A stretch of DNA of 64,000 nt from a virus. Numbering within the stretch: position 1 is the stretch's first letter; every line of letters begins with the position of its first letter. The notes beneath the pieces are model-generated. The model was given only the letters and a program-made list of their open reading frames with translations, did not search any database and had not been told where the DNA came from. The position numbers and the translations under genes were made by a program. Shown here piece by piece: positions 995 to 31,035 of the stretch. The stretch lies in IMG/VR virus record IMGVR_UViG_3300042453_005575, positions 26,077-90,076 of that record; one strand, given 5' to 3'.

Positions 995-1510
995 ATGCCT
1001 GAAAAATCAGAACAAAAATATACAAAAAAAATAAAAGCTAGAAGAGGAAGACCTCCAGGGTCTAAAAACAAAAAAATTGTAACCCATAAAAAAAGTAGAG
1101 TAGAGAAAGTTAATAATAAAAAAACTCGTTCTAGGGTGAAGATAAGTGCAGTCGAAGAAAAACCTGACAAATTAGCTGCATTCAGGTCTAAGCGAGTAAA
1201 GCCGTTAACTATAGAAAATCTAAAATCCACCCAGGACAAAATTCAAAATTGCAGCCACGATGCAGCTGAAACTGAGGAACTAGATAACCATATTATTATA
1301 AAAGCAGTCAAATGGTTATCACAACATATGCACCACACCGAAGTTCAGTATTATAAAAGTCATTCAAAAAAAAGAAATATGTCTTTTATAAACTGTATGG
1401 TATCCGATATTTTAGGCTTTTTTAATGTAAAAGATACAGACTTGCATAAATATGTTAAAACCAACAAATTCATAGTAAATTACACTAACACAAATGGACT
1501 TCATAAATAA
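995..1510 (+). CDS. AT-hook-containing basic protein
   Basis: This 171-residue protein has a strongly basic N-terminal third. The segment ARRGRPPGSKNKK near residues 16-28 is a textbook AT-hook core (RGRPPGSKNK) for minor-groove binding of AT-rich DNA. The C-terminal 70 residues (AVKWLSQHMHHTEVQYY onward) look globular and are not recognised. The gene overlaps the next gene by 17 bases, suggesting co-transcription with the AAA+ ATPase. DNA binding is inferred from the motif only. Confidence 0.75.
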   Translation: MPEKSEQKYTKKIKARRGRPPGSKNKKIVTHKKSRVEKVNNKKTRSRVKISAVEEKPDKLAAFRSKRVKPLTIENLKSTQDKIQNCSHDAAETEELDNHIIIKAVKWLSQHMHHTEVQYYKSHSKKRNMSFINCMVSDILGFFNVKDTDLHKYVKTNKFIVNYTNTNGLHK

Positions 1511-3080
1511 AATCAACAATTACCATAAAGCTTGTTACTCAGGCTTGTTTGTATTAACCCACGAAGAAGGAAGACTTTCTAGGGAGCTATTGAGCTTGAG
1601 TGACCGAGACCCGGGAATAGCTATACACGAGTGGGACGCCCAAAACGGGTTAGTTTATAGGATAGGTGCAAATGAAGGTGTCCACCCGGACGAAACAAAA
1701 TCTACATCTTATTTGTTAGATTATATTCAAAATTATAAACATACGGACACCATTTTTATCTTGAAAGATTTTCATCTGCATTTTGATAAAGTTATTAATA
1801 TTAGAATGCTTAGGAATGCTTGGAATAAGTTAAAACGCCGCAGAAATATGATAATCTTTGTCGGGCACAAATTCGCTGTTCCTGCAGAGCTGCAGAAAGA
1901 AATCCAGCTGTTAGACTATAATCTCCCTGATGCCGCAGCTATTAACGAGAGGCTTACATTCATCAAAGATTCAATCAACAAAGAGCTGCAAGACTCAAAT
2001 AAGCCTATTATTGAAATAGAGCAATCTATTGCTGAGGCATCTGTAGAGGCTGCCAAAGGCATGACCCATGTGGAAGTCGAGAATGCTTTTGCTATGGCGT
2101 ACGTGACGGCTAAAAAGTTTGATAGTGTTTTTGTTGACGCCGTTTTTCAAGAAAAAATAGCTCAACTTAAGAAAAATGGCCTACTCACATACATGGAACC
2201 AAACATATCATTTGATAATGTGGGTGGTATGTCCGGGCTTAAAAATTGGTTATTGGCGCGTAAAAAAGCTTATTCAAAAGATGCGCGTAGTTATAATCTA
2301 CCTTTACCTAAAGGAATGTTGTTGGCCTCTGTTCCAGGCACTGGCAAATCACTCATATGCAAAGCTATAGCTAAAGAATTTGACTGCCCATTATTTGCGT
2401 TAGATCTTGGGTGCATATTCGACTCTTTAGTCGGCAACAGCGAGAAAAATATGAGAGAAGTTATTAAAACGGTCGAGAGTATAGGTAAGTGCGTAATATT
2501 GATAGACGAAATCGAAAAAGCCCTTAGCAACTCAGCAGTGTCTGGGCAAGGAGATTCAGGCGTAAGCTCACGTATATTCGGCACATTTTTAAGCTGGCTC
2601 AATGATCGAACAAATCCTGCTTTTATAGTGGCTACAACAAATAATCATACGTTGCTTCCTTCTGCGCTTATTCGCAAAGGAAGATTTGACCAGTTATTCT
2701 GGGTAGATCTTCCTAGCGCTGAGGAGCGGAAAGAAATATTCAATGTGGTTATCAAAAAATACGGAAGAGACCCTAGGGATTTTTCGATAAAAACTTTTGT
2801 TTCTGGCGCCGAAAATTTTACAGGTGCAGAAATCGAAGAGGTATTCAAAGATGCTATGTATAGAGCTTTTGATCGTGGAGAAGAAATAGCAGACAATCAT
2901 GTAACTGATGTTTTGGCAGATTTCATTCCTTTTGCTGTGTCGCATGAGGAAGACTTGAAAATAATGCGGCGACAAGCTCAAGGTAAACTTGCGATGGTCA
3001 CATCGGAAGGAGACCCTATCGCCGACGTAGAAAAAAATATGCGCAAGTTGAGCATTGCGCTAGGAGTAGGAGCAGAATAA
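1494..3080 (+). CDS. AAA+ ATPase, Ycf46-like
   Basis: This is a single-ring AAA+ ATPase of 528 residues. The N-terminal half (GLFVLTHEEGRLSRELL; TIFILKDFHLHF near 82-95; NMIIFVGHKFAVP) resembles the degenerate P-loop half of Ycf46-type proteins of chloroplasts and cyanobacteria. The C-terminal half carries Walker A SVPGTGKS near 278-285, Walker B CVILIDEIEKA near 336-344, sensor-1 ATTNN and the arginine-finger-like RKGRFDQ. The nearest AAA relatives are the FtsH/Cdc48 class. The substrate is unknown. A Ycf35-like and a DUF2997-like gene follow within 2 kb, an association that suggests a functional set. Confidence 0.85.
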   Translation: MDFINKINNYHKACYSGLFVLTHEEGRLSRELLSLSDRDPGIAIHEWDAQNGLVYRIGANEGVHPDETKSTSYLLDYIQNYKHTDTIFILKDFHLHFDKVINIRMLRNAWNKLKRRRNMIIFVGHKFAVPAELQKEIQLLDYNLPDAAAINERLTFIKDSINKELQDSNKPIIEIEQSIAEASVEAAKGMTHVEVENAFAMAYVTAKKFDSVFVDAVFQEKIAQLKKNGLLTYMEPNISFDNVGGMSGLKNWLLARKKAYSKDARSYNLPLPKGMLLASVPGTGKSLICKAIAKEFDCPLFALDLGCIFDSLVGNSEKNMREVIKTVESIGKCVILIDEIEKALSNSAVSGQGDSGVSSRIFGTFLSWLNDRTNPAFIVATTNNHTLLPSALIRKGRFDQLFWVDLPSAEERKEIFNVVIKKYGRDPRDFSIKTFVSGAENFTGAEIEEVFKDAMYRAFDRGEEIADNHVTDVLADFIPFAVSHEEDLKIMRRQAQGKLAMVTSEGDPIADVEKNMRKLSIALGVGAE

Positions 3081-3084
3081 CACT

Positions 3085-4104
3085 ATGATTGCGGAAAACA
3101 ACCCAAAAGAATATAAAATAACAGATACACTGCAAAAGTATTACGACAAAGTTTTTCAAGATGGAAAACTTGTGAATGTGCATATAGGCATGTGGGGGAT
3201 GAGCTATAGTTTAACCGAGAATGATATTAAACTGGATAATAAATTACCAGAAACCATTAAACTCGGTAAAAAAATGCTTATTAAGCCTGCAGTATTCAAC
3301 GCATTCAAAAATTATGAACAGCGCGTTCGTAATTTTCTTTATAGTAATTCTTTTGAATTCCCATTAGTGAGCCAAGCGCATTTCGTCCCCAAGTCAAAAT
3401 ACATGGAAGTGTACGGAAAGCTTAATGAAATGGGGAATAAGTATATGGGAATGGTTGATGAGTTTATTGAAAAATACCAGGATTATAAAAAGGAGGCGCT
3501 TGATTATTACGAGCAGCATAAAGATTCAGTGAACGTCGAGCATTTGGAAGAATATTACCCAGAACCTGGGAAAGTTCGCTCTAAGTTTTATTTCGATATT
3601 GTTTCATTCGAGATAACTATACCTGCCGAGTTTAAAAAGTTGGACTTGCACGACGAGATTAACCGTGAAAAAGCTGCGGCCGAAGCTCGGGAGCAGGCGT
3701 TAGTTAATTACGAAGATCAATATTCGAAGCAGCTCGATGTGCATATGGCTAAAATTAGCGATTTTGTTAATGCCGCAACGCTTACCTTGCGTGAAAAGAT
3801 AACAGAGCATTGTGAAGTTGCTTTGAATAAAATTAACAAAAAAGAAATTGTGTCCGATGCCAATATTCGTACACTAATGAAACATATCAAAGAATTCAGA
3901 GAACTGAACTTTGTTGATGATAAAGCTATCGAGGATAAACTTCAAAAAGTAGAAGCGCTTCTACAAGGCGATCATGATTTTAGTAAAGATAAAGACGCTT
4001 TGGGTTTGCTTAAAGAGCACCTCGCAAGCGTTGTCACCGAGGCTGAAAACTTGACAGACTTAGCTAATGTGTCTGGAGAGTATTTTAGGAAACTAAGCGT
4101 TTAA
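3085..4104 (+). CDS. Helical hypothetical protein next to AAA+ ATPase
   Basis: This 339-residue protein follows the AAA+ gene by 4 bases. The N-terminal part contains VNVHIGMWGMSYSLTE and KLGKKMLIKPAVFNAF. The rest is predicted mostly alpha-helical with charged coiled-coil-like stretches near 195-235 and 270-310. Length, composition and position beside an ATPase are reminiscent of the DUF3150 family, but that is only an impression from sequence character. It may be an adaptor or substrate of the ATPase. No catalytic motif is visible. Confidence 0.7.
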   Translation: MIAENNPKEYKITDTLQKYYDKVFQDGKLVNVHIGMWGMSYSLTENDIKLDNKLPETIKLGKKMLIKPAVFNAFKNYEQRVRNFLYSNSFEFPLVSQAHFVPKSKYMEVYGKLNEMGNKYMGMVDEFIEKYQDYKKEALDYYEQHKDSVNVEHLEEYYPEPGKVRSKFYFDIVSFEITIPAEFKKLDLHDEINREKAAAEAREQALVNYEDQYSKQLDVHMAKISDFVNAATLTLREKITEHCEVALNKINKKEIVSDANIRTLMKHIKEFRELNFVDDKAIEDKLQKVEALLQGDHDFSKDKDALGLLKEHLASVVTEAENLTDLANVSGEYFRKLSV

Positions 4105-7359: not shown

Positions 7360-9283
7360 AGCGATAATGTTTTTGCTGACCGGAGAAGGTTACGGCAAAA
7401 CTAAAAATGAAATGCTGACTGTTGGAGAAGTCAGCGGTTATGTAATCGGGCATTTATCTATAGACGGCAAAGAAGCTGTTCTGGAAAGACATATAGACAC
7501 AGCCAAGGTAAACTTGAAATATGATGGAAAAGTTTATAAAAAATCCTCAGAAGTTTCGGAATTGTGGGGAAACTTATTCCAAATAGATAAACACATAGTT
7601 AAAAATATCGTTATTTCCAACCAAGGAGAAATAGCACTGTTGTTGAACGGCGATGCCAGCACTAAAGAAAAGTTATTCCAAAAAATATTTATGGTTCCGA
7701 ATACATCAAAATTGCGGGACATAATATGGAATAATTATATAAAGGCCGCTCCGCCAGAATATCCTGTTAAAGACTCGTCAGAGCTTCGAAGCGAAGTACA
7801 CATTTTAAAAAAATTGATAGAAGAAGAAGAATTGGAGCTGGCGGCTGTTCATGTAGATGAAGGTGCTTATGATAAACTTATTGCACGTAAATCTTTTTTG
7901 ACTCAAGTTGTAAATTCGGCAATGCTTCTAGCAAAGTATGACGCTTTAATCCCGAGATTAGAGTTGGATATAACTGAACTTCGGGCAGAAAAAGCAGGTA
8001 TAAACAACAAGACAGCGCATATCGACATAGCTACCTACATACAAAAGTTACAAGCTCTGGATGCATCGAAGCCCTTATATGAATCAAAACAATTGGTTTT
8101 GGTGAAGAAAAAGACGCTTATTCCTCCAGGAAAGATATTAGACCAAAAGGCTTACGATGAAGCAAACCATAAGCACTCCGAATTGGAAACAAAGCTCGCT
8201 TCTTTAAACTTGGTTACTAGGGAGTTTCGTACCAAAATCGCTGATTATGAGTCTAAAGGGATTGCTTCTGGAGTATGCCCAACTTGTGGAACAAGTCTAG
8301 AAAATCTTTTGGACGTGGTTGCACATATAAAATCAGACTTAGCAATTCGCGAAAAAGAGATAGCCGGGGTATCGCAAGAACTTATGAGCGCTAAAAATGA
8401 TTATGAAAATTTAAGTAAGCTTAAAATTGCTTGGGAACTATACCATACCGAGCTAAAAAGTCTCGACGACAAGCTTGAGGCATATGAAAATATCGATTAT
8501 TCTGAGGAAGACCATAACTTATACAAGTCTGTGGTTAGCCAGTACGACTTGTACGCGGCAGAAGTTAGAAAAATTGACGCCCGGCTAGCTTCGCTCGAGA
8601 CTGAGTTAAATTCAGCCAAACTAAGCCTTGCAGGAATCACTCAATATGATAGGGACAGATCAGAATTTGATGGAGAACAAGCTGAGATAGACGCGCAGAT
8701 AATAAAGTTTAAGGAAGCGCAAGCCAAAGCCACAGCTATAAAGGTTTCTATAGGGGCTAAAACCAAAGAGTTAGAGGCATTACTAAAACAAGTAGATGAA
8801 AACAACAGATATATTGAAAAAAATGCTCGACGTAAAAAATACGTAGGTATTCTCAATTCATTATACGACCTGTTCCATACTTCCAAGTTTCCTCGCGCGC
8901 TTATACAAACCTATGCATCAACTGTTTCAGAATATATGACTGAAATATTAGCTTCTTTTGAATTTCCTTACACAGCAAAAGTGAATGAAAGCTTTGGGAT
9001 AAATATCTATGATTCTGAAGATCGTGAACTCCCTAGTATATCGGGCGGTCAACAAGTTATGGTTGGGTTTAGCTTACGCATGGCGTTGCATCAAATGTTT
9101 GTAGGTGCATTTCCGTTCATGATTATAGACGAAGGTTCCTACGGGCTAGCCGAAGATTCTATAAAAAAATATTTTAATATTATTTCTAAGCTTAACAAAA
9201 CCAGTAAATTCAAACAGGTCATTGTGATCGACCATCACAAAGAGTTGTCTGACTACGTTGATCATACTATATTGCTGACATGA
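7238..9283 (+). CDS. SbcC/Rad50-like ATPase (gp46-like)
   Basis: This 681-residue SMC-type ATPase is the partner of the SbcD-like nuclease. Walker A GGNGTGKSS lies near 30-38. Long coiled-coil arms flank the zinc hook CPTC near 347-350. The ABC signature SISGGQQ is near 600-606 and Walker B FMIIDEG near 627-633. The length resembles phage gp46 rather than the roughly 1000-residue bacterial SbcC. The ATG at 7238 (MELTKLIMKNFRAHK) gives the standard N-terminal beta-strand; an upstream TTG at 7229 is less likely. The stop overlaps the next start (ATGA). Confidence 0.92.
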   Translation: MELTKLIMKNFRAHKALSLNLAQGITGIIGGNGTGKSSIVEAIMFLLTGEGYGKTKNEMLTVGEVSGYVIGHLSIDGKEAVLERHIDTAKVNLKYDGKVYKKSSEVSELWGNLFQIDKHIVKNIVISNQGEIALLLNGDASTKEKLFQKIFMVPNTSKLRDIIWNNYIKAAPPEYPVKDSSELRSEVHILKKLIEEEELELAAVHVDEGAYDKLIARKSFLTQVVNSAMLLAKYDALIPRLELDITELRAEKAGINNKTAHIDIATYIQKLQALDASKPLYESKQLVLVKKKTLIPPGKILDQKAYDEANHKHSELETKLASLNLVTREFRTKIADYESKGIASGVCPTCGTSLENLLDVVAHIKSDLAIREKEIAGVSQELMSAKNDYENLSKLKIAWELYHTELKSLDDKLEAYENIDYSEEDHNLYKSVVSQYDLYAAEVRKIDARLASLETELNSAKLSLAGITQYDRDRSEFDGEQAEIDAQIIKFKEAQAKATAIKVSIGAKTKELEALLKQVDENNRYIEKNARRKKYVGILNSLYDLFHTSKFPRALIQTYASTVSEYMTEILASFEFPYTAKVNESFGINIYDSEDRELPSISGGQQVMVGFSLRMALHQMFVGAFPFMIIDEGSYGLAEDSIKKYFNIISKLNKTSKFKQVIVIDHHKELSDYVDHTILLT

Positions 9284-9495
9284 TGTTCGTGCTATACGAG
9301 GGTATCAAAGACAAACAAGAGATGATGTGGGAACCGCCTTATGGTCCCGGGTTCACAAAAGATGAAATAGCGAATGCCGAAACCATGGATATCGTTGCTT
9401 CTGATATAAAAGAACCCGGGATAGATTACGCTATATTTATGTTAAGAAATAAAACAGGTGAAGTAATTCAAAGCAAAAAAATTATTGGATATTAA
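9280..9495 (+). CDS. Hypothetical protein, 71 aa
   Basis: This small protein (MMFVLYEGIKDKQEMMW...) is translationally coupled to the SbcC-like gene by a 4-base overlap. A central segment (YAIFMLRNKTGEVIQSKKI) looks like a beta-hairpin. No family is recognised. Confidence 0.6.
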   Translation: MMFVLYEGIKDKQEMMWEPPYGPGFTKDEIANAETMDIVASDIKEPGIDYAIFMLRNKTGEVIQSKKIIGY

Positions 9496-9499
9496 CTTT

Positions 9500-9757
9500 A
9501 TGGGAAAAGAACTAAAAGAAAACGCGATCATTCCTACTTTGCTAGCTGGGGCTGCTGTGTATTTCGGCATGACCAGGAATAGTAGTAAGCTTGGGGATGT
9601 AACTAAAATGGCTGTGTCAAGGCTTGTAGACGACCAGGTGAGTAGAAATACCGGAGGTCAACCAAAGCCAAACAATCATAAAATGAAGCATAAAACCGCA
9701 AAAAGTAAGTCGAATAAAACTAATAAAATACGTTTGCACGATATTCAACATCGATGA
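9500..9757 (+). CDS. Small protein with hydrophobic N-terminus and Lys-rich tail
   Basis: This 85-residue protein has a short hydrophobic stretch (AIIPTLLAGAAVYFG) and a very basic C-terminus (NNHKMKHKTAKSKSNKTNK). ATG 9500 lies 4 bases after the upstream stop and is preferred to TTG 9485. It overlaps the helicase gene by 4 bases. Membrane association or nucleic-acid binding is possible; neither is shown. Confidence 0.6.
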   Translation: MGKELKENAIIPTLLAGAAVYFGMTRNSSKLGDVTKMAVSRLVDDQVSRNTGGQPKPNNHKMKHKTAKSKSNKTNKIRLHDIQHR

Positions 9758-11211
9758 AAATCAAGTTAACTAGATTCGATGGAGGTTTGAAAATAAACCC
9801 CAGCCCTGTGTATTTATTAAAATTTCTTCGTTATTTCCACAGAGAAATGCAATCAATTCAATGGAAAAGAGAAAGTGTATTTGTTGAAAAATTATTATAT
9901 GTTTCTGACGAGGAAGGTTCTATATACACATTGCCGGGGTTTTTTAAAGAGATTGTTGATTTATGCCATAAAAACATGGACGCTGTAGAAATAGAGGATT
10001 ATAGAACATCTATGCCTGAGCCTGATTGGGCTGCGGTTAAAAAAATAAAACTGCGCGATTACCAAGTTGAAATGGTTCTGGATATGCTTTTCAAAGGCAA
10101 AGAAGACATCGGAGTTATTAACGCTACAGGAGGCGCAGGAAAAACGTATCTACAAGCTATCACATATGCTGCTTGGAATAAATTGAATACTATTTTGGCT
10201 ATCCCTCTCAAACAGGTTGTGCTGCAGACGCACGCCAAATTTAAACAATTATTCCCAGATAAGCATATTGGTATTGTGGGAGACGGGAAAAACGATATAA
10301 GCTCGGATATCACAATAGCAACATTCAGGTCTTTAAAAAATTGTGCCTTAGAAAAATGTGAACTTCTTCTTGTGGACGAAATGCAGTCTGCGGGGCAGGA
10401 CACTTTCCAAAACTGCTTGAAGTTGGTTAAGCCTCGAAGAATATTTGGGTTTTCAGCAACAACTGAAGGTATGTTCAATAATACAGATAAATTGCTGAAA
10501 GGCATGTTCGGAGAAGATTTGATATATTTTCCTTATGACGATGCGGAGGTAGCCGGGGCGGTTGTTCCTGGGGTTGTGTATATGGTAAAAATGCCGGATG
10601 ATTTAATTACTGACGGGTACACAAGTATGGAAGCTAAAATTAAACATGGAATAAAACGGTGCTCCGAAAGAAACGAAATAATCGGTAAAGTATGCGCAGC
10701 AATTCCTAAAACTTGGCAAACAATTGTATTTATAGATCATGTCAAGGACCACTTGGTTTCTTTGTTTAAGTATTTACCTCAAGGCTCTAAATATTTGCAT
10801 AGAGAAAGCAGTAAAAAAAGTGTTGGGGCTTTCGCATTATCCCCTAGCGAACAAAATAAAGTAATCGAAGAATTTGCCAATAACAAATTTCAGATACTTG
10901 TAGCTAGTGATGCTTTCCGGGCAGGTGTAGACATACCTAATTGTAGGGTAGTTGTTCAGGCTTCGGGAGGGTCATCTAAAGTTGAAATATTGCAGGAGGC
11001 TTATCGTGGGAGCAGAATTCTAACAGAAGAGTATAAGGAAAAGTTTGGGCTGGAAGAAAAAACTCATTTTGTGTTGGTGGATTTCATGGACAACCATGAC
11101 CCGACACTGGAAAATATGGCTAAAAAGCGCATTTCTTATTACAAAGAACAGAAATGGAAGATTAAAATCATAGAAGATTATAGTAAAATCGACTGGTTTA
11201 ATTACACGTAA
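9754..11211 (+). CDS. SF2 DNA helicase, UvsW-like
   Basis: This 485-residue superfamily 2 helicase is likely the recombination and branch-migration helicase. After an N-terminal accessory domain, the DYQVEMV Q-motif-like segment precedes Walker A NATGGAGKT near 123-131. Motif II reads DEMQ near 208-211 and motif III FSAT near 233-236. Motifs V and VI are FRAGVDIP and QEAYRGSR. DEMQ instead of DEAH, together with the neighbouring gp46/gp47 pair and primase, fits a T4 UvsW-type protein. Confidence 0.85.
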   Translation: MKIKLTRFDGGLKINPSPVYLLKFLRYFHREMQSIQWKRESVFVEKLLYVSDEEGSIYTLPGFFKEIVDLCHKNMDAVEIEDYRTSMPEPDWAAVKKIKLRDYQVEMVLDMLFKGKEDIGVINATGGAGKTYLQAITYAAWNKLNTILAIPLKQVVLQTHAKFKQLFPDKHIGIVGDGKNDISSDITIATFRSLKNCALEKCELLLVDEMQSAGQDTFQNCLKLVKPRRIFGFSATTEGMFNNTDKLLKGMFGEDLIYFPYDDAEVAGAVVPGVVYMVKMPDDLITDGYTSMEAKIKHGIKRCSERNEIIGKVCAAIPKTWQTIVFIDHVKDHLVSLFKYLPQGSKYLHRESSKKSVGAFALSPSEQNKVIEEFANNKFQILVASDAFRAGVDIPNCRVVVQASGGSSKVEILQEAYRGSRILTEEYKEKFGLEEKTHFVLVDFMDNHDPTLENMAKKRISYYKEQKWKIKIIEDYSKIDWFNYT

Positions 11212-14314: not shown

Positions 14315-17020
14315 ATGAATAAAAATTCAAGTAAATTATGTATTAGACCCAAAGCTTTGGCAGATACGCAGCCCGAGCTTATGATTATATTTTCGCATCC
14401 AAACATGGACGACTTGCAAGTTCGTGAATTTGGTAAAAAAGGATATGCCGCTGAAGAAGTGGTTAGCGCCTTAGAAGCTGCCGGCATCCCTCTAGATAAG
14501 GTATATTTTACAGCAATGGTCAAGCACGGTATAGGGAGTAAGGCCAAACCTTCTGCCGAAGACATAGACCTTTTTGCAGGTGAGCTGGACGAAGAAATCG
14601 ACCGGTTGAAACCTAAATTAATTATGCCTTTGGGTGCGGAAGTATTCAAAAGGATAATGAAGTCCAATATAAAAGTAGGAGATTATATCGGAGAAATCAC
14701 AGATACCCCGTACGGCAAAGTTTTAGCCAACTACGCACCTGGTATGATTGTGATGATGGACCCTACTAAGCGCCCTGAGTTTAGAGAAAATTTCCTATTG
14801 GCGAAACGAGCTCTAGACAACAACCTACAATATCAAGATTTTAAGTATATTGTTATAGATAGCCCCGCTGAAAACGAAGCGATATTAAATAAATATATTA
14901 AATCCGGGGCATTTACAATCGGCTACGACGCAGAATGGTTCGGTAGTAAATTTACAGACGACGAGGTCATGTACGAGTTCCAGTACTCTTGCGAAAAAAA
15001 TGTAGCTGTGGTGTTAAACATATCCAAAGACGGTAAGACAGAAAATTTGGAATTATTGAACACTATGAAGTTGTTATTAGAGCACCCACAAGCACAGCGC
15101 ATGGGCTGGAATATTCGTGCTGATGACCTCAGGCTAAAGCATAGAGGTTTTAATATACCGGATGAGACGCTCGCTTTTGATGGTATGAAAGCCGTGGCTT
15201 TCTTCGATTCCAGGCTAAGTAAGGGTTTGGAAACAGGTGTAAAAATATTTACAGATTATCCTCCCTACTACACCGAGCTAAACAGAAAACTAAAAGAGCA
15301 TAAATTAGCTAAAAATGAGTTAGCAAAATTAAAATTTTTAGACCCAGATGTTTATTATTACTATTGCGCGGGTGATGCGGTGAGCCACCGAGAAGCTTGC
15401 TGTAGAATGCGGCATTCGTTCCCCGCGAACCTGAAAGACTTTTATTTCAATGTGTATCTTCCTTTAACCCATTATTTTTTGGATATGGAGTACACAGGAA
15501 TTGCGGTGGATAAAAATATTCTAGAAGATCTGACAGCGAAATATTCTTCTAAATATTACGAGTTACGAGAGGAGTTAACAACGTTCCTTAAATTGATTTA
15601 TGGTGTTGAAGATTTCAATCCTAATTCAGCCCCGCAAAAGAAAGAATTGCTTTTTGATGTTCTGAAGCTGGAACCTGCGTATTATACAAAATCAGGTAAA
15701 TCCCCCAAATCAAAGGTATGGTACGATAAACAATCGCCGCAGTCGCAGAAAATGTATCAGCCGTCCACTAACGGTAAATCATTATCTACGATGAAATTCA
15801 AATTAGAAGAAATATTAGAGCAACATCCGAATTCTATTGAGCTAAAGAACAAGCATAAAGCCATAACTCTGCTGCTGAATGTAAGCAGAGTCGGAGTATT
15901 TGCCACAAAATTTCTTTCTAAAAAAGGTATTATTGAAGATGCAACGGATGACTCACTCGAGGATGACTCGGAGGAGCCGCTGAAACAAAGTTATTGGGCT
16001 GCTATATGTAACGACGGAAAAGTTCATGCTAGCTTTTTTGAGTGCTTGAAAAATTTTAGAGCTTCAAGTTCACCTAACGTGCAAAACCCTGCATCCAAGG
16101 TGTTGGCGTACATACCTGACATTTTTGTTCCAAATTACACCAAACTTTCTTCGGAAGAACAGAAGTCTCTTGCGCATATTATGCCTAAAAATATACGCAA
16201 TATATTTCACCCTGCGGATCCTGATTATTATTGGGTTGAGCTTGATGTCGCAGGAGCTGACCTTGCGATTATGGCTTTTTTATCTCGCGATAAAGATTTC
16301 ATACAGGATATTAGGGCAGGTAATTTCCATCAAACTAAAATGCGAGAATATTTTAATGACCCTACGCTAACAAAAAAAGATGTATCCAAATATGTGATAT
16401 CCAAGAGTATCACATTTCGTGTTTCTTACACCGCAGGTTTAAAATTTGCCGCATTACCCATACAGGCTGATATATACGCTGAGAATGGGCTGTATGTTTC
16501 GTTGGAAACATTAAATTATGCGCTGGAAACATGGCAAAGGTATAAAGACTATATGCTTTTCCGTGACAAATGTACGGCTGAAGTTGATAACCACAATAAA
16601 ATAACAAACGCGAGAGGCCTAGTGCTGAACTATGAAAAAACCGATAATTTCGGTATTTTAGCTGGGTGGAAAAATGAAAGTTTGGCTTTTCCTGTAGCCA
16701 GTGAGTTGGCTTGTTTTATGTGGGATGCTTCGGTTAATTTTAAAAACCTCATGAAAAAGGAAGGTTTATGGATGAAATATATTTACCCTGTTAATACTGT
16801 ACATGACGCAGGTTATTGGGTAGTGCATAAAGATTTAGTTAAAGATGATTACATCCAAGAAATGCTCAAATACATATTCTGTCACAAAACTTATTTAGCT
16901 ACTAATGATAATGTAGGCTGTGAGTTGGTAATTTCTGACAGATGGAAGGGAAAGGAAAAAATCTTTGAAAAAGAAACTGCCTGGAACTTTGAAAAAAATA
17001 TTTGGGAGTGGAAAAATTGA
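14315..17020 (+). CDS. Family A DNA polymerase with N-terminal UDG-like domain and 3'-5' exonuclease
   Basis: This is the replicative polymerase, 901 residues. Residues 20-170 resemble the uracil-DNA glycosylase superfamily (FSHPNMDD, IMPLGAEVF, NYAPGMIVM), an arrangement also known in SPO1-type polymerases; the canonical UDG catalytic motifs are degraded. The proofreading exonuclease follows (YDAEW near 204-208, GWNIRADD near 265, YYCAGD near 349). Polymerase motif A is VELDVAGADLA near 641, with Asp kept but the usual Glu replaced by Asp. Motif B is KSITFRVSYT near 697, and motif C is VHDAG near 828, where the usual HDE reads HDA. Confidence 0.88.
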   Translation: MNKNSSKLCIRPKALADTQPELMIIFSHPNMDDLQVREFGKKGYAAEEVVSALEAAGIPLDKVYFTAMVKHGIGSKAKPSAEDIDLFAGELDEEIDRLKPKLIMPLGAEVFKRIMKSNIKVGDYIGEITDTPYGKVLANYAPGMIVMMDPTKRPEFRENFLLAKRALDNNLQYQDFKYIVIDSPAENEAILNKYIKSGAFTIGYDAEWFGSKFTDDEVMYEFQYSCEKNVAVVLNISKDGKTENLELLNTMKLLLEHPQAQRMGWNIRADDLRLKHRGFNIPDETLAFDGMKAVAFFDSRLSKGLETGVKIFTDYPPYYTELNRKLKEHKLAKNELAKLKFLDPDVYYYYCAGDAVSHREACCRMRHSFPANLKDFYFNVYLPLTHYFLDMEYTGIAVDKNILEDLTAKYSSKYYELREELTTFLKLIYGVEDFNPNSAPQKKELLFDVLKLEPAYYTKSGKSPKSKVWYDKQSPQSQKMYQPSTNGKSLSTMKFKLEEILEQHPNSIELKNKHKAITLLLNVSRVGVFATKFLSKKGIIEDATDDSLEDDSEEPLKQSYWAAICNDGKVHASFFECLKNFRASSSPNVQNPASKVLAYIPDIFVPNYTKLSSEEQKSLAHIMPKNIRNIFHPADPDYYWVELDVAGADLAIMAFLSRDKDFIQDIRAGNFHQTKMREYFNDPTLTKKDVSKYVISKSITFRVSYTAGLKFAALPIQADIYAENGLYVSLETLNYALETWQRYKDYMLFRDKCTAEVDNHNKITNARGLVLNYEKTDNFGILAGWKNESLAFPVASELACFMWDASVNFKNLMKKEGLWMKYIYPVNTVHDAGYWVVHKDLVKDDYIQEMLKYIFCHKTYLATNDNVGCELVISDRWKGKEKIFEKETAWNFEKNIWEWKN

Positions 17021-18519: not shown

Positions 18520-18774
18520 ATGAAATATAAAATCGACATCGCAGACAGAACTGGACACACCACCATGGCAGACTTAAATATTCAAGAGGCTACTGATCAA
18601 ATTATAGACCACGCTGAAAAAAACTTGATGTGGGTATTTATAAACGGTGAAAAGTTTGAGTTTTCTGGAGCTGATTTTCGCTCTGAAGAAAATGTTGAAA
18701 AGCTTCAAGGGAAGCTCGAAGCGCTGAATGACCCTGCGGTTCTCTTGACTGGCGCATTGGTTGGCGGTTGCTAA
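18520..18774 (+). CDS. Candidate ubiquitin-like (beta-grasp) protein ending Gly-Gly-Cys
   Basis: This 84-residue protein starts with a likely beta-hairpin (KYKIDIADRTGHTTMADL). A helix follows (IQEATDQIIDHAEKN), then two strands (LMWVFINGEKFEFSG), a variable helical part, and a final strand AVLLTGALVGGC. The order of elements and the C-terminal GG followed by one Cys match a ubiquitin-like modifier that must be trimmed to expose di-glycine. JAB-type and E1-type genes lie 3 kb downstream. The fold is inferred by eye; an unrelated small alpha/beta protein cannot be excluded. Confidence 0.5.
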   Translation: MKYKIDIADRTGHTTMADLNIQEATDQIIDHAEKNLMWVFINGEKFEFSGADFRSEENVEKLQGKLEALNDPAVLLTGALVGGC

Positions 18775-18813
18775 TCAAATAGAGTAAAGCTTTTACTAAA
18801 AGCCGAAACTTAC

Positions 18814-18849
18814 TTAGCCCTGCACCGTTTAAATATGGTGCAGGGCTAA
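18814..18849 (+). terminator. Perfect 13-bp hairpin after candidate Ubl gene
   Basis: TTAGCCCTGCACC at 18814-18826 and GGTGCAGGGCTAA at 18837-18849 pair perfectly around a 10-nt loop. The hairpin is flanked by A's upstream of AAAGTTTATAT, so it is terminator-like with a poor U-tract. It separates the small gene at 18520 from the 686-residue gene. Confidence 0.7.
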
Positions 18850-18902
18850 AAGTTTATATACATACACACACACTTATCTAAAATTTGAGCATTTTTATTC
18901 CT

Positions 18903-20963
18903 ATGCATTTTTCCATAAAAGAATTTAAAACAATTGTAAACGACTTTTTCGCATACAATAAACATATTATAAGCGGGCAAGTAACGGTAGACTATCACTA
19001 TTCTTCAGAAGCAGCCCCGAAATATAGATTAAATTTCGGAAACCTAGAGTTTGAAACTGTGGAGGATATGCATCAAGTTTCCAAATACATACCAATACCT
19101 CTCCACGGGCTGATATATAAGAATAAAGACCGTCACCCTAAGCTTTGGAACCATCTGGTCGTGAGCGCTAATTCTAATGACAAGCCTGCCACATTAAGCC
19201 TCATACAGAAAAAGCATACCGAAGCATTCAAAAGTATTAAACTAATTCCGGAAACTCTAGCAGAAGATCGCCAACCGTTTATTATATGTGAGGAACCTCT
19301 TGAAGTTACTGAAGGAAATTATACTTATAGGTTTTTAACAATACCTGCATCAGGCAGATTCCGTGGCGGATCAAGATCTGATATATATTTGGCAGCTCGA
19401 AATGACGAGCCTATATATGATTACCTGGATAAAGGTTATTTTGTGCTTCCGCTAGTCCGCCGGTTCTCGGCTTCGAATAAAACAGGTAAAACCACGCTTG
19501 TTGCAGATGAATACAACGTTCATGTGGCTCACATCATGCTAATGTGCTGTATACAGCCTGCTTTGGTCTCGGAATTGCAGGATGGATGTTTTATAAATTC
19601 GCATAACGCTGAAATAATGAGGCTGAAATTAGAGAAAAAATTAAGTGAAAAACAAAAAGCAGTTTTCGATAAGGAGAAAGCCAATATCGAAGCAGATTAC
19701 AGGAAAAATACAACTCTCATTGTTATAGGAAAACTCATGTCAGACGATATCCCAAAAACAACTATGAGAGATATCGTGTTTACAAAAACTTCTGCCGCAT
19801 ACGAAAACATTACGATAGAGGCATCTGATTTGCTGAATGTCCTATACTCCAGGATGAATTTCCAAGGCGAGTTCGACATCTACGCTATCAGCAATTTATA
19901 TAGCCAGTATGTAGAAGAATTATTGAACCAATCTCTTGAGGCTAAGGTATTAACACCGATTAAAATTAACGGAATCGAGATCAAGCCCTCGATAACTGCA
20001 ACATATCAAAGATATATCAATGGAATACGAATAAACAAAGACGAAGTAGCCAAAGTTATCCACCGCGCTTCTTGCTTTCATGACCAGAAAGACTACAATT
20101 TGTTTCTTAAGTCCATTTCCCGTATGTCTATACGTTGGCATGATATTATTGCTAATGGCCTGCCTGTAAAAATCCATCAAATGAACTATGATGAATTAAA
20201 ATCGCCAACACCCTCGGAGCGCGCTCCGGTTATAAAATTCTTTATAGACACCGATGACCACAGACAGATCAAAATCAAAGTAGATGACAAGCGTGCTGTG
20301 CGTGTCCAGTTTTCAAAATTACTGAAAAAGGTTGATAGCTTAAATAGAAAAACAAACGGCGGCTATGGTGCTCAGTATATTAACGGGTACAGATACACAA
20401 CTCGAAACGGTGAGTGGTGCGCTCGAGAGCTTGTCGCTATTTTAGCTGAGTGTTGCACATTCGCTGAAAAAACAAAAAATGAAAACGGGGAAGAAGTAAA
20501 CACAGTAAAAGTTGAGATAACGAAAGAAGATCTTACAAAACTTTTAGGTGTGGTGCAAAAAGAAAAAGAAGCAATGCTTAAAAGATCTAAAGAATTTTTG
20601 GCTTCGGCTGTCAAGCTGACCGGAGCAGAATCTATAGAATTTTTGGGTAAACCAGCCTATAAAGTAAAAGGCTTACTCCGTGAATACGCTGTGGTTATAG
20701 AAGACGCTAAAGTTTACGATTACGCTACAAAGCAATACCGCTGTATTGTGAATGACCGCCATTATAAAGGAGCCGGCTATGACGACATAGCATCTCGCTT
20801 ATTGGCACTTAAAAATGACTCTGTTATGCAAAATCATATCGGCACACTCAAAGGAGCTGCTCAACCAGGAGCGGAAAACGCTCACAATAGCTACGCACCC
20901 GACAGAGAGATAGGAGAGATGGTCGAAACTATGGTTGACGAAGTGCTGAAAAAAACTGCATAG
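18903..20963 (+). CDS. Large hypothetical protein, 686 aa
   Basis: No family is recognised. The protein contains TIPASGRFRGGSRSDIYLAA near 145-165, YNVHVAHIMLMCC near 203-215, a charged helical stretch (KLEKKLSEKQKAVFDKEK) near 240-260, and a C-terminal CIVNDRHYKGAGYDDIASRL near 619-638. ATG 18903 is preferred to TTG 18885. It sits between the candidate Ubl and the DnaQ/JAB/E1 genes and might be a component of that system, but no E2 or ligase signature could be identified with confidence. Confidence 0.75.
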   Translation: MHFSIKEFKTIVNDFFAYNKHIISGQVTVDYHYSSEAAPKYRLNFGNLEFETVEDMHQVSKYIPIPLHGLIYKNKDRHPKLWNHLVVSANSNDKPATLSLIQKKHTEAFKSIKLIPETLAEDRQPFIICEEPLEVTEGNYTYRFLTIPASGRFRGGSRSDIYLAARNDEPIYDYLDKGYFVLPLVRRFSASNKTGKTTLVADEYNVHVAHIMLMCCIQPALVSELQDGCFINSHNAEIMRLKLEKKLSEKQKAVFDKEKANIEADYRKNTTLIVIGKLMSDDIPKTTMRDIVFTKTSAAYENITIEASDLLNVLYSRMNFQGEFDIYAISNLYSQYVEELLNQSLEAKVLTPIKINGIEIKPSITATYQRYINGIRINKDEVAKVIHRASCFHDQKDYNLFLKSISRMSIRWHDIIANGLPVKIHQMNYDELKSPTPSERAPVIKFFIDTDDHRQIKIKVDDKRAVRVQFSKLLKKVDSLNRKTNGGYGAQYINGYRYTTRNGEWCARELVAILAECCTFAEKTKNENGEEVNTVKVEITKEDLTKLLGVVQKEKEAMLKRSKEFLASAVKLTGAESIEFLGKPAYKVKGLLREYAVVIEDAKVYDYATKQYRCIVNDRHYKGAGYDDIASRLLALKNDSVMQNHIGTLKGAAQPGAENAHNSYAPDREIGEMVETMVDEVLKKTA

Positions 20964-20988
20964 CCCATCAAATAAACACAGAAAACAA

Positions 20989-21630
20989 ATGAAAGCACCT
21001 TATATACTGGATATAGCTACCACACCCTTGCCAAGAGAAACCCTCTTGGCAAGGGCTCCAGAATTCAAAGCTGGCGCGAATCTAAAAGACCCGGCTAAAA
21101 TAGCCGAAGATATAGAACGAAAAAAGAAAAAGTATTTGGAAGATGCCCATCTTTCAGAAGCAACTGCTACTGTTTCGTGCATAGCTATAGCTGATTATAA
21201 CCATCCAACTGATTCGATGTTGCTCACCAACGACTCTGAGAAGGATTTGCTGGCGAGCTTCGAAGAATTTATAACTAAAAATGAAAAAGAAAAACTAATA
21301 ACATTCAGAGGATTTAAATTTGTTTATCCTTTCTTAGCTAGAAGAGGTGCGGTACACGGGTTCAATTTTTTCAAATATCTTGTGTACCCCGCAGCACTTC
21401 AAAGCAACCCATTCGAGCAACATATCGACGTGGCAAAAATATGGGCTTGTGGGAGCATTTTTCATCCTGAAACGCTTCAAGAAATAGCTGATGTTCTAGG
21501 TATAGAATGCAGCGGGGTTTCTGACATTTACCATGAATTAGTTAATAACACGTCTGATTCTTATGCGTTCGTACATATGTTCAATAAATTAAAAATAATA
21601 AATAAAATAGGTAAAGCCTTAGGAATATAA
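20989..21630 (+). CDS. Degenerate DnaQ-like 3'-5' exonuclease fold protein
   Basis: This 213-residue protein has the layout of RNase H-fold exonucleases: ILDIATTPL near 6-14 in place of a DxE motif, LITFRGFKFVYPFLARRG near 103-120 in place of the TfNGxxFDxPfLxxR block, and HIDVAKIWA near 145. The acidic residues expected at the first two motifs are largely replaced, so it is probably catalytically inactive or much altered. It is followed 4 bases later by the JAB-like gene. Confidence 0.6.
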   Translation: MKAPYILDIATTPLPRETLLARAPEFKAGANLKDPAKIAEDIERKKKKYLEDAHLSEATATVSCIAIADYNHPTDSMLLTNDSEKDLLASFEEFITKNEKEKLITFRGFKFVYPFLARRGAVHGFNFFKYLVYPAALQSNPFEQHIDVAKIWACGSIFHPETLQEIADVLGIECSGVSDIYHELVNNTSDSYAFVHMFNKLKIINKIGKALGI

Positions 21631-21634
21631 TATT

Positions 21635-22084
21635 ATGGGGTTATTTGAAAATATTAATCATCTATTGGCTAAAGAAATAGTCGAAGCCTCCCGTGTATGT
21701 GGATATTCAGAAGAAGAACAGGGTGGTATTATTCTTGAAAAAAATGGGGAGTATGTTTTTACCTATGTGAAAAACAAGCATAGAGGAAGTGATATGGCTC
21801 CTCAGCTGTACGAAACTGACTTAGAAGATTTTAAAGAAAATGTGGCCCCGAAAGTTGCGGATGGGTGGAAATTCTTTGCGAGTTTCCACACACATCCGTC
21901 ATTCAGCCCTACCCCTAGCCGCTTGGATTTGGAGAAGTTATTCACAGGATTCAAATATAATGTTATTTTTGCTACCCATCAAAAAATGTTTTGTTGGGCA
22001 GAATGGTTGTCGCAAGATCATTTATTTTTATATTACATTCCATTAAATTCACTCAAACTTATTATACATCATAATGAATCATAA
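21635..22084 (+). CDS. JAMM/JAB (MPN) metalloprotease-like protein
   Basis: This 149-residue protein has the JAMM signature. An EEEQGGIIL segment supplies the early Glu. SFHTHPSFSPTPSRLDL has His85, His87, Ser95 and Asp98, the H-x-H-x7-S-x2-D zinc-binding pattern of deubiquitinase-type JAB domains. JAB proteins cleave peptide or isopeptide bonds after ubiquitin-like C-termini; others occur in phage tail-assembly proteases fused to NlpC, which is absent here. The gene overlaps the E1-like gene by 11 bases. Confidence 0.82.
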   Translation: MGLFENINHLLAKEIVEASRVCGYSEEEQGGIILEKNGEYVFTYVKNKHRGSDMAPQLYETDLEDFKENVAPKVADGWKFFASFHTHPSFSPTPSRLDLEKLFTGFKYNVIFATHQKMFCWAEWLSQDHLFLYYIPLNSLKLIIHHNES

Positions 22085-22667
22085 AATTGCAATCGCGGGG
22101 GCAGGAGGAATCGGCTCTAACCTATTAGCTATATTATTCGACTACGGCTTTAACCGTAAACAATTTGACTATGCTTCTGCCAAGGTCGATATTTACGATG
22201 ACGACACAGTCGATTTGACTAACTTATTACATCAAAATTATAAAATAGACGACATCGGTAAATACAAAGTATCTGTTATGGAAGACAAGTACATTGTGAA
22301 TGGGATCAAACGAAGGATGACCCCAGACGATTTTAAAAATTACAATGTTGTCTTTTGTTGCGTAGATAATATGCCTTTCCGTAAGGCTCTTTACGAGTAT
22401 AGTTGGAACAACACAGATAAAAAATTGTTCTGGGTTGACGGGCGCTGCACATCGCGGCAAGGCGCGGTGTTCACTTCTGAAATGCCTAAAGATATTCTGC
22501 TAAACTACATAGACGCTTCAAAAGAGGAAGGTGGATGTCTACTCGCCTTTGAGAAAGAACAGAACATCAGCCACACACTTCCAACGATTGTCGCAGGAAT
22601 GATGGCTCAAGCTTTTCTAAACAACCTTCGTGAGCAAAAAACATCCAAACTTATATTTATGGTGTAA
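22074..22667 (+). CDS. E1/ThiF-like adenylyltransferase
   Basis: This 197-residue Rossmann-fold protein is the minimal E1/ThiF type. AIAGAGGIGSN at residues 6-16 is the nucleotide-binding loop, DDDTVDLTNLLHQNY near 41-56 matches the D-x-D-x-V-x-x-x-N-L-x-R-Q block, and CCVDNMPFR near 95-103 matches the CxDn block. A candidate catalytic cysteine is Cys155 in EEGGCLLAF. Such enzymes adenylate the C-terminal Gly of ubiquitin-like or sulphur-carrier proteins. Overlap with the JAB-like gene argues for a joint pathway. Confidence 0.82.
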   Translation: MNHKIAIAGAGGIGSNLLAILFDYGFNRKQFDYASAKVDIYDDDTVDLTNLLHQNYKIDDIGKYKVSVMEDKYIVNGIKRRMTPDDFKNYNVVFCCVDNMPFRKALYEYSWNNTDKKLFWVDGRCTSRQGAVFTSEMPKDILLNYIDASKEEGGCLLAFEKEQNISHTLPTIVAGMMAQAFLNNLREQKTSKLIFMV

Positions 22668-22683
22668 CTATTTGAGATAGAAT

Positions 22684-22720
22684 TGTGTAGGTATACTGTT
22701 GTACCCGGTGTACCTGCACA
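22684..22720 (+). terminator. Hairpin after E1-like gene
   Basis: TGTGTAGGTATAC at 22684-22696 pairs with GTGTACCTGCACA at 22708-22720, with two G-U pairs and an 11-nt loop. AAAATTTT follows. This fits a terminator closing the JAB-E1 unit just before the promoter at 22734. Confidence 0.6.
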
Positions 22721-22733
22721 AAATTTTAACTAC

Positions 22734-28325: not shown

Positions 28326-28979
28326 ATGACTAACTCCGAGCTAGAAGAACATTGGAATAACAAACATCCTAAAAATCCAGTTATTTACACCGGGAGAGCT
28401 ATACCTAGCAAATGTCCTACATGTAAAAGTAATACTTTACAGGATAAGGTTAGGATCGATGTAAAAACAATGCTTTCTGCGAATGACTATCAGCTTAAAA
28501 AATTAGCGGAAGTCGAACGCCTGATTGGGGTTAGCTATGATGAAACTATATGGAACATCCAAAAATGGGTAGTCAAAAACATCAAATATGTCGGCGACGA
28601 TTTAAGCCAAGGGGTATTAGAATATTGGCAGTTTCCTTTTGAGACTTTAAACCTCAGGTTGGGTGATTGCGAAGACGGTGCTTTGCTGCTGGCAGGGTTG
28701 GCGATAAACAGCAATGTCCCGGCTTTCAGGGTTCGTATGGTGGCTGGAAATGTTCAGCCTGATGTAACGGCCCCGGAAGGCGGGCATGCTTATGTAATGT
28801 ACTTACGAGAATCAGATAATCAATGGGTTGCTATAGATTGGTGTTACTTAGAAGATTCGGCTGTGCCAGTAGCATCCAAAAAGTTATTTAACCAAAACTC
28901 TAGTTACAAAAATATTTGGTTTTCATTTAACCAAATGTTCTCATGGTCCAAAAGAGCAGAGGAGTTCATGTCTTTTTGA
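28326..28979 (+). CDS. Transglutaminase-like cysteine protease-fold protein
   Basis: This 217-residue protein has a Cys-His-Asp triad in the transglutaminase-like order: LRLGDCEDGALLLAGL (Cys near 115), EGGHAYVMYL (His near 153) and WVAIDWCYLE (Asp near 170). The N-terminus has a single CPTC pair. Phage members of this fold are of uncertain role and could act as peptidases or amidases. Confidence 0.72.
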   Translation: MTNSELEEHWNNKHPKNPVIYTGRAIPSKCPTCKSNTLQDKVRIDVKTMLSANDYQLKKLAEVERLIGVSYDETIWNIQKWVVKNIKYVGDDLSQGVLEYWQFPFETLNLRLGDCEDGALLLAGLAINSNVPAFRVRMVAGNVQPDVTAPEGGHAYVMYLRESDNQWVAIDWCYLEDSAVPVASKKLFNQNSSYKNIWFSFNQMFSWSKRAEEFMSF

Positions 28980-30099: not shown

Positions 30100-31035
30100 A
30101 TGAATAAAACAAGATTAGGGTACTGTTGTATTTCTTTAGGTGAGCACTTAAGTAAATTTAGAACAATAACTTTAACCAGAGCAAAGGCCTTAGGCGCAGA
30201 AGCAAAAGACAAACCTTACAAGCTTTGGCGAAAAGAAAAGTTATTCACGATATGGCGGCATAATTTGCAGGAGTACGTGGATATTTTGCACTATAATTTA
30301 CAAAATAATTTTCAGGTTTACAGAATAAGCAGCGATTTATTTCCTCTTGCCGACCATGAGGACTTTTTGTCTATCTGGGATGATTTTTCATCAGACAAAG
30401 CTAACTTCAACCAAGCCTATCAAGCTACACAATACGTAATTTCGGCCGGATTTAGATTATGCGCTCACCCTGGACAATTCGTCTCACTCGGGAGCCCAAA
30501 CGATAGAGTTAGAGAAAATTCTATAAAAAATTTAGAGCTGCATGCAAAAATATTTGATTTGCTTGGTTTAGAGAAAACGTGGGAATCCCCGTTAAATATC
30601 CATTTAAGCAACGGGAAAGATAATATAAAAAATTTAAAATATTTTCAAAGCTCTATAGAAAAATTAAGCGAGTCCGCGCGATCAAGATTGATTTTTGAAA
30701 ATGAAGATAAATCTTTTTGGGTTTGGCAGAACATACGTAAATATTTTGAAAATTTTCCTGTGACTTTAGATTTTCATCATAGAGCTATAAATAATCTTGG
30801 CGAGCAAGAGAAAGAGGCGTTTGACGCTTGTAAAAGCTCTTGGGGAAAATTTCGACCATTAATGCATATCTCAGAAGGGAAAACCGGAAAAATGGATAGA
30901 ACTCATCATGACTGGGTAGAGACCTTGCCGGAATGTATTTTATCTGATGGTGGAGTTGACCTGGAAATAGAGGCTAAGAAAAAAGACTTGTCTGTTTTTA
31001 AACTGCGGAAAAAATATGCAATGTTAGTTATTTGA
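30100..31035 (+). CDS. UV DNA damage endonuclease (UvdE/UvsE-like)
   Basis: This 311-residue TIM-barrel protein starts RLGYCCISLGEH. It has the UvdE landmarks YRISSDLFPLADH near 75-88, CAHPGQFVSLGSP near 125-137, LNIHLSNGK, LIFENEDKSFWVW near 195-208, LDFHHRAIN near 223-231 and MHISEGK. These include the metal-binding His, Glu and Asp positions. The enzyme nicks 5' to UV photoproducts, giving light-independent repair. Length and motif order match the family closely. Confidence 0.88.
   Translation: MNKTRLGYCCISLGEHLSKFRTITLTRAKALGAEAKDKPYKLWRKEKLFTIWRHNLQEYVDILHYNLQNNFQVYRISSDLFPLADHEDFLSIWDDFSSDKANFNQAYQATQYVISAGFRLCAHPGQFVSLGSPNDRVRENSIKNLELHAKIFDLLGLEKTWESPLNIHLSNGKDNIKNLKYFQSSIEKLSESARSRLIFENEDKSFWVWQNIRKYFENFPVTLDFHHRAINNLGEQEKEAFDACKSSWGKFRPLMHISEGKTGKMDRTHHDWVETLPECILSDGGVDLEIEAKKKDLSVFKLRKKYAMLVI

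Follow-up and report, generated by a model that had tools for sequence, protein, structure and literature searches.

The 64,000-nucleotide window analysed here, which is part of a 90,076-base record of an uncultured virus, rather probably carries a cassette of phage genes for ubiquitin-like modification in which no E2 can be recognised. The cassette consists of a small ubiquitin-like protein (Ubl), a large partner protein (P686), a JAB protease and a minimal E1. The open reading frames originally predicted for Ubl, JAB and E1 were all borne out, including their coordinates and the 11 bases (22074-22084) by which the JAB and E1 genes overlap. The features of the region are:

18520..18774, plus strand: Ubl, open reading frame of a putative 84-residue ubiquitin-like modifier, C-terminus LVGG followed by C
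18814..18849, plus strand: terminator-like hairpin directly 3' of Ubl, 15-pair stem
18903..20963, plus strand: P686, large partner protein without an assigned fold; Cys391 and Cys614 do not vary, conservation is highest over residues 596-645
20989..21630, plus strand: accessory DnaQ/PolB-type 3'-5' exonuclease-like protein, sub-threshold match to DNA_pol_B_exo2 (2.8e-4)
21635..22084, plus strand: JAB/JAMM metalloprotease, candidate for Ubl processing or deconjugation, 149 residues, Prok-JAB 1.4e-7
22074..22667, plus strand: minimal E1 (ThiF-type adenylating enzyme) with candidate catalytic Cys155, 197 residues, ThiF 3.2e-20
22683..22721, plus strand: terminator-like hairpin behind E1, at the end of the cassette, 16-pair stem

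The neighbours of the cassette are those of a replication arm, i.e. a DnaB-type helicase, a fusion of uracil-DNA glycosylase (UDG) with PolA, and gp88 on the 5' side, and a 342-residue protein and a RecA/UvsX-type recombinase on the 3' side. In the fusion protein (14315-17020) the glycosylase domain precedes a family A DNA polymerase, to whose N-terminus it is joined. The first part of the arm (1494-4104) has a DUF3150 protein beside an AAA+ ATPase, and further along the window there is a transglutaminase-like protein with a zinc-binding start (28326-28979) and a UvdE UV endonuclease (30100-31035). Long GPCGP/APVSP-like repeat runs in minus-strand open reading frames at 61231-63639 probably represent the shadow of a gene with collagen-like repeats.

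Scans of IMG/VR turned up 27 related contigs, the longest of 204 kb, all from uncultured phages and most of them partial. The complete interval is covered by 24 of these, which together with the window make 25 loci (two of them, L010 and L019, have their first or last gene cut by the contig end); the three further contigs start or stop inside the set and stand outside this count. Ubl, P686, JAB and E1 co-occur in the same order in all 25 loci, a figure that is biased towards presence because the scan finds contigs via one of these very proteins; the contig sets retrieved via E1, via Ubl and via P686 agree with one another. This conserved synteny supports well the original view that Ubl, JAB and E1 form one phage-encoded functional set. 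That view could have foundered on phages that keep JAB and E1 after loss of the small gene, and wherever a contig with E1 and JAB covers the place of Ubl, Ubl is present. The degenerate DnaQ-like protein noted beside the set, on the other hand, is not core, since the exonuclease-like gene is present in just 13 of the 25 loci. In the 12 loci without it P686, JAB and E1 abut or overlap, with a spacing between P686 and JAB of +4 to -61 bases, which shows that P686 belongs to JAB and E1. A pattern scan of one genome each from 84,980 species of bacteria and archaea gave no relatives of E1 and P686, so that the set is cargo of phages and not of the host. Tblastn against GenBank phages gave no homologues of Ubl, JAB or P686, nor did these phages yield close DNA relatives, and no description of such a phage set was found in open-licence papers.

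The C-terminal Gly-Gly of Ubl is invariant in all 23 distinct Ubl proteins, so the conservation on which the original prediction depended does extend to the homologues. The tail that follows differs in length between 0 and 9 residues: it is missing in four proteins, a single C in one (the Ubl of the window, which ends ...TGALVGGC), two residues long in ten and three to nine residues long in eight. Beyond the window the tails are SK, EI, TK, ASL, AAQE, LGIAE, QAVLFDIE, LLQELLSLE or none, and the single Cys after Gly-Gly, earlier singled out as the arrangement that needs trimming, is thus a property of the window and is replaced elsewhere. A Gly-Gly near the C-terminus is found in 48 of the 1289 open reading frames of 60-160 residues in these loci, a count that includes the Ubls. 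In the most divergent locus (L018) Ubl was chosen from 163 open reading frames (E 5.5e-7) by a model built without L018, and its terminus is exactly ...RVIGG.

These termini bear on a reading in which nothing is conjugated, where E1 would adenylate Ubl or P686 in an MccB-like peptide modification or assembly and Ubl would serve the replication complex as a structural subunit. The position in the replication arm agrees with it, as does the top PDB sequence match of E1, which is MccB, at an insignificant E of 0.08. However, an invariant Gly-Gly, a variable tail and a complete JAMM protease mark a C-terminus that is processed and reused and not a structural subunit, and we regard this reading as the most improbable of those weighed here.

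Ubl was not recognised by any sequence database searched. Weak Pfam matches (GAD, anthrax PA domain 3 etc.) differ between members and, because they are scattered in this way, were dismissed as noise; small proteins of crAss and Xanthomonas phages were also rejected as homologues as profile similarity is absent. An AlphaFold2 model based on 20 sequences (pLDDT 81.5) has the order beta-beta-alpha-beta-beta-alpha-beta, and its end (residues 81-84) is predicted to be flexible. According to our own count, beta-grasp proteins of the SUMO, ubiquitin, ISG15, PB1 and protein G/L type make up 49 of the 50 top PDB neighbours in Foldseek, at moderate scores (best E 0.03, TM about 0.45); 8tyx, a bacterial Ubl-deubiquitinase complex, is also among the neighbours. 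The modelling makes it likely that the window Ubl has a beta-grasp fold, in keeping with what had been proposed for the 84-residue product, at moderate confidence.

A strong stem-loop follows the Ubl stop codon in all 22 loci that were folded. The sequences of these hairpins are unrelated, a T run mostly comes next, and their z values range from -3.3 to -7.9 against mononucleotide shuffles. The number of terminator-like sites in the window region is near chance, and the hairpin on the E1 side is weak on its own. Given the hairpins behind Ubl and behind E1, Ubl is probably transcribed separately from its enzymes and more than these, as would be expected for a modifier used in amounts.

The match of JAB to Pfam Prok-JAB lies above the curated cut-off, and its profile matches AfJAMM (1r5x/1oi0). 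The full JAMM motif noted in the window protein (His85, His87, Ser95, Asp98) was found to be invariant in 20 aligned JABs, together with Glu27/Glu28. The argument that JAB is there for trimming was upheld in part: tails do exist, but the phages of the four tail-less Ubls retain JAB, therefore trimming is not its only conserved task. We consider that JAB probably also takes the tag off target proteins.

E1 scores above the curated cut-off of Pfam ThiF. GxGG, Asp42, Asn50, Lys65, Asp98, Arg103 and Cys155 are unchanged in all 18 sequences compared, and a conserved His is found in place of the Arg of the usual NxxR motif. Cys155 is located in the same loop as the Cys of the ThiF proteins of PRTRC, crAss phages and Xanthomonas phages, as judged by eye and not strictly in one column, and Cys125 is probably not catalytic because it is a Ser in L018. 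In L015 (8829-9982), and also in L035, the E1 gene is broken after the DDDTV codons by about 1.15 kb. The L015 insertion holds a 323-residue LAGLIDADG-type open reading frame (9061-10032) and, going by its sequence, the element in both loci resembles an intron that encodes a homing endonuclease, although a group I intron was not recognised in the L015 insertion by Rfam. Elements of this type favour conserved genes.

Sulphur transfer is the main rival to conjugation. According to this explanation JAB trims the small protein, and E1 adenylates it and helps to turn its C-terminus into a thiocarboxylate whose sulphur goes to a nucleotide, a tRNA or a small molecule, as in the PDTC/quinolobactin siderophore clusters or in Urm1. 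To our knowledge, the characterised Ubl-JAB-E1 trios without E2 (PDTC/quinolobactin type) carry sulphur and do not conjugate proteins. Trios of a single Ubl, JAB and E1, without E2, are known in sulphur pathways (Iyer et al. 2006, PMC1779556, rows 4a-4e), the phage E1 also scores with ThiF/MoeB models, the phage has nine tRNAs, and the Cys-rich gp88 protein adjoins the cassette. However, the E1 of those clusters is fused to rhodanese, whereas the E1 of the window is a protein of 197 residues without a rhodanese domain, and its three Cys form no CxxC zinc pairs. Rhodanese was over the cut-off in none of the 12 phage records, the same search being positive in 13 of 14 control genomes; neither metabolic neighbours nor, in a non-exhaustive Pfam scan of the proteins, a sulphur-acceptor enzyme were seen. 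Sulphur transfer moreover leaves unexplained why JAB is kept beside tail-less Ubls, and on balance we hold it to be unlikely.

The 686-residue protein, in which an E2 fold had been suspected, does belong to the set, but an E2 is undetectable in it by sequence or profile. It gave no Pfam, PHROG or PDB sequence matches over threshold, and no E2 by profile, by PDB, or by hhalign against PRTRC-B and a crAss candidate. The two Pfam models used in the record search for E2s, Prok-E2_D (PF14460) and Prok-E2_B (PF14461), matched in none of the 12 phage records; PF14460 rings in two PRTRC plasmids, which served as its positive control. The AlphaFold2 model of P686 has a pLDDT of 82.9 and a pTM of 0.49, and a whole-chain fold search returned no solved structural relative and no E2. 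Among viral proteins, Foldseek picked up three distant relatives (E 6e-8 to 6e-6), hence a part of the P686 fold is present in other viruses.

P686 has only two invariant Cys, Cys391 and Cys614 (20 out of 20 members). The best conserved stretch, residues 596-645 (0.84), contains Cys614, which together with His620 is invariant in the C-terminal domain. The predicted order there (DSSP of the AlphaFold2 model) is helix 549-573, strands 576-606, Cys614 and helix 627-637, which is compatible with an E2, with low pLDDT at 617-622. E2-like proteins in which the His has moved downstream have been described (Iyer et al. 2006, PMC1779556). The C-terminal domain also matches DUF7737, a domain of unknown function, weakly in 20 out of 20 members (best 4.7e-5; in the window protein below the family cut-off); a link from DUF7737 to E. 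coli YehI was dropped as the similarity was not found. From its conservation, Cys614 may be an E2-type catalytic Cys, invariance being necessary for this and not sufficient. P686 may accordingly be a transferase or a target adaptor, and that it acts as a transferase seems rather doubtful. We tentatively raise the possibility that P686 might represent a new class of Ubl transferase, non-homologous to E2s, which with the minimal E1 would make up a two-enzyme, wholly phage-encoded pathway that tags replication or host proteins.

It is useful to compare the cassette with known systems. It belongs to the broad kind of prokaryotic Ubl/JAB/E1 sets described by Iyer et al. 2006, as a small beta-grasp protein (fold at moderate confidence) with a conserved C-terminal glycine is combined with a JAB that has a complete JAMM motif and stands beside an E1-like adenylating enzyme. 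It is not a PRTRC, Bil, CBASS or sulphur-carrier operon, since it fails the defining features of these that were tested. The nearest E1 family is the ThiF of PRTRC (ParB-related, ThiF-related) systems, in which a small Ubl-like protein, JAB and E1 also form one set on a mobile element, i.e. on plasmids and integrative elements. The best NCBIfam model of the phage E1 is TIGR03736 PRTRC_ThiF (6.1e-13), and hhalign gives 98% with the Deinococcus PRTRC ThiF. However, the score of 48.7 bits is far under the cut-off of 144.75, the PRTRC-B E2 is the PF14460 protein absent from the phage records, Ubl is unrelated to PRTRC-C by profile, and a P686 partner is not known from PRTRC. No ParB match was found in Pfam among the cassette proteins.

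Bil (BilABCD) similarly co-encodes Ubl, JAB and E1, and its JAB trims a pre-Ubl. The differences are that BilA has two Ubl domains and Bil a true E2 (PMC11354881), whereas the present set is phage-encoded, with an 84-residue single Ubl domain and no PF14460 or PF14461 E2 detected. CBASS Cap2/Cap3 share the E1 and JAB chemistry, but the phage E1 is one ThiF domain and not an E1-E2 fusion, a nucleotidyltransferase neighbour is absent, and the phage has its own Ubl. As host Ubl defence systems are known, one might think that the phage Ubl, E1 and JAB act as a decoy or deconjugase against Cap2/Cap3 or Bil, and JAB and E1 do match PADLOC JAB models and E1-E2 models, respectively. These matches are weak and general, though, a complete E1 with a matched Ubl would be superfluous for a decoy, and the set is strictly kept in every group member, its place being the replication arm rather than an accessory region that varies; we judge counter-defence to be quite improbable.

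Other phages have comparable genes. The tail module TAPI-TAPK of Lambda/T1 has a Ubl with a terminal Gly plus a JAB, but there JAB is fused to NlpC/P60 and E1 is missing, in contrast to a replication-arm set with E1. A ThiF-type E1 in or near the replication genes is found in crAss-like phages, in Xanthomonas PhiXhv and in Acinetobacter ME3 jumbo phages, in the crAss-like phages beside JAB; these E1s are only about 30% identical to that of the window, P686 is absent and the neighbours are different. In Xanthomonas phage PhiXhv-12 (L043:2667-6540) a ThiF-type E1 is grouped with a 140-residue protein ending ...SGG and a Cys-rich protein of 892 residues, possibly as another phage Ubl set, non-homologous by profile to that of the window. 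Two crAss-like phages (L044:2325-6570 and L045:2855-6567) have a four-gene run beside primase and UDG, with a possible beta-grasp protein, an HSH...CLGxGPI protein, JAB and a ThiF-type E1 that carries a thiamine biosynthesis annotation. This run may be a further, mis-annotated ubiquitin-like set. In Acinetobacter phage ME3 (L048:2864-7885) an annotated PRTRC protein A and a ThiF lie a few genes apart.

For conjugation, the explanation we prefer, the following course can be envisaged. A short transcript that stops at the conserved hairpin would carry Ubl alone, which would allow the modifier to be made in excess over the enzymes. Where Ubl has a tail, JAB would cleave it behind Gly-Gly; the minimal E1 would then use ATP to adenylate the terminal glycine and take Ubl onto Cys155. 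Ubl could pass to its targets directly, as in the E2-less archaeal SAMP or Urm1, or via P686, where the Cys614/His620 domain would be the most promising candidate site of transferase activity or target recognition, and the tag would be taken off again by JAB. SAMP and Urm1 are conjugation systems without E2, i.e. there is a precedent for these steps. The scheme draws on genes in fixed order with an invariant Gly-Gly and invariant, presumably catalytic residues, all of which are seen at the sequence level; the beta-grasp fold of Ubl enters it as a prediction from the model. What we infer from these is conjugation, a role for P686, and targets among replication/recombination proteins or host proteins of early infection. 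The location in the replication arm says little as a guide to the target.

Bacterial ubiquitin-like systems have so far been mainly a matter of host defence or plasmid cargo. The cassette points to tagging of proteins by these phages during infection, with a modifier of their own. If this is true, tagging would be done by the phage and not by the host, with a stand-alone kit fixed in the replication arm of a phage group. With 84, 686, 149 and 197 residues, the set is compact enough for processing, activation, transfer and removal to be directly testable, and a transfer enzyme of a new type may come to light with it.
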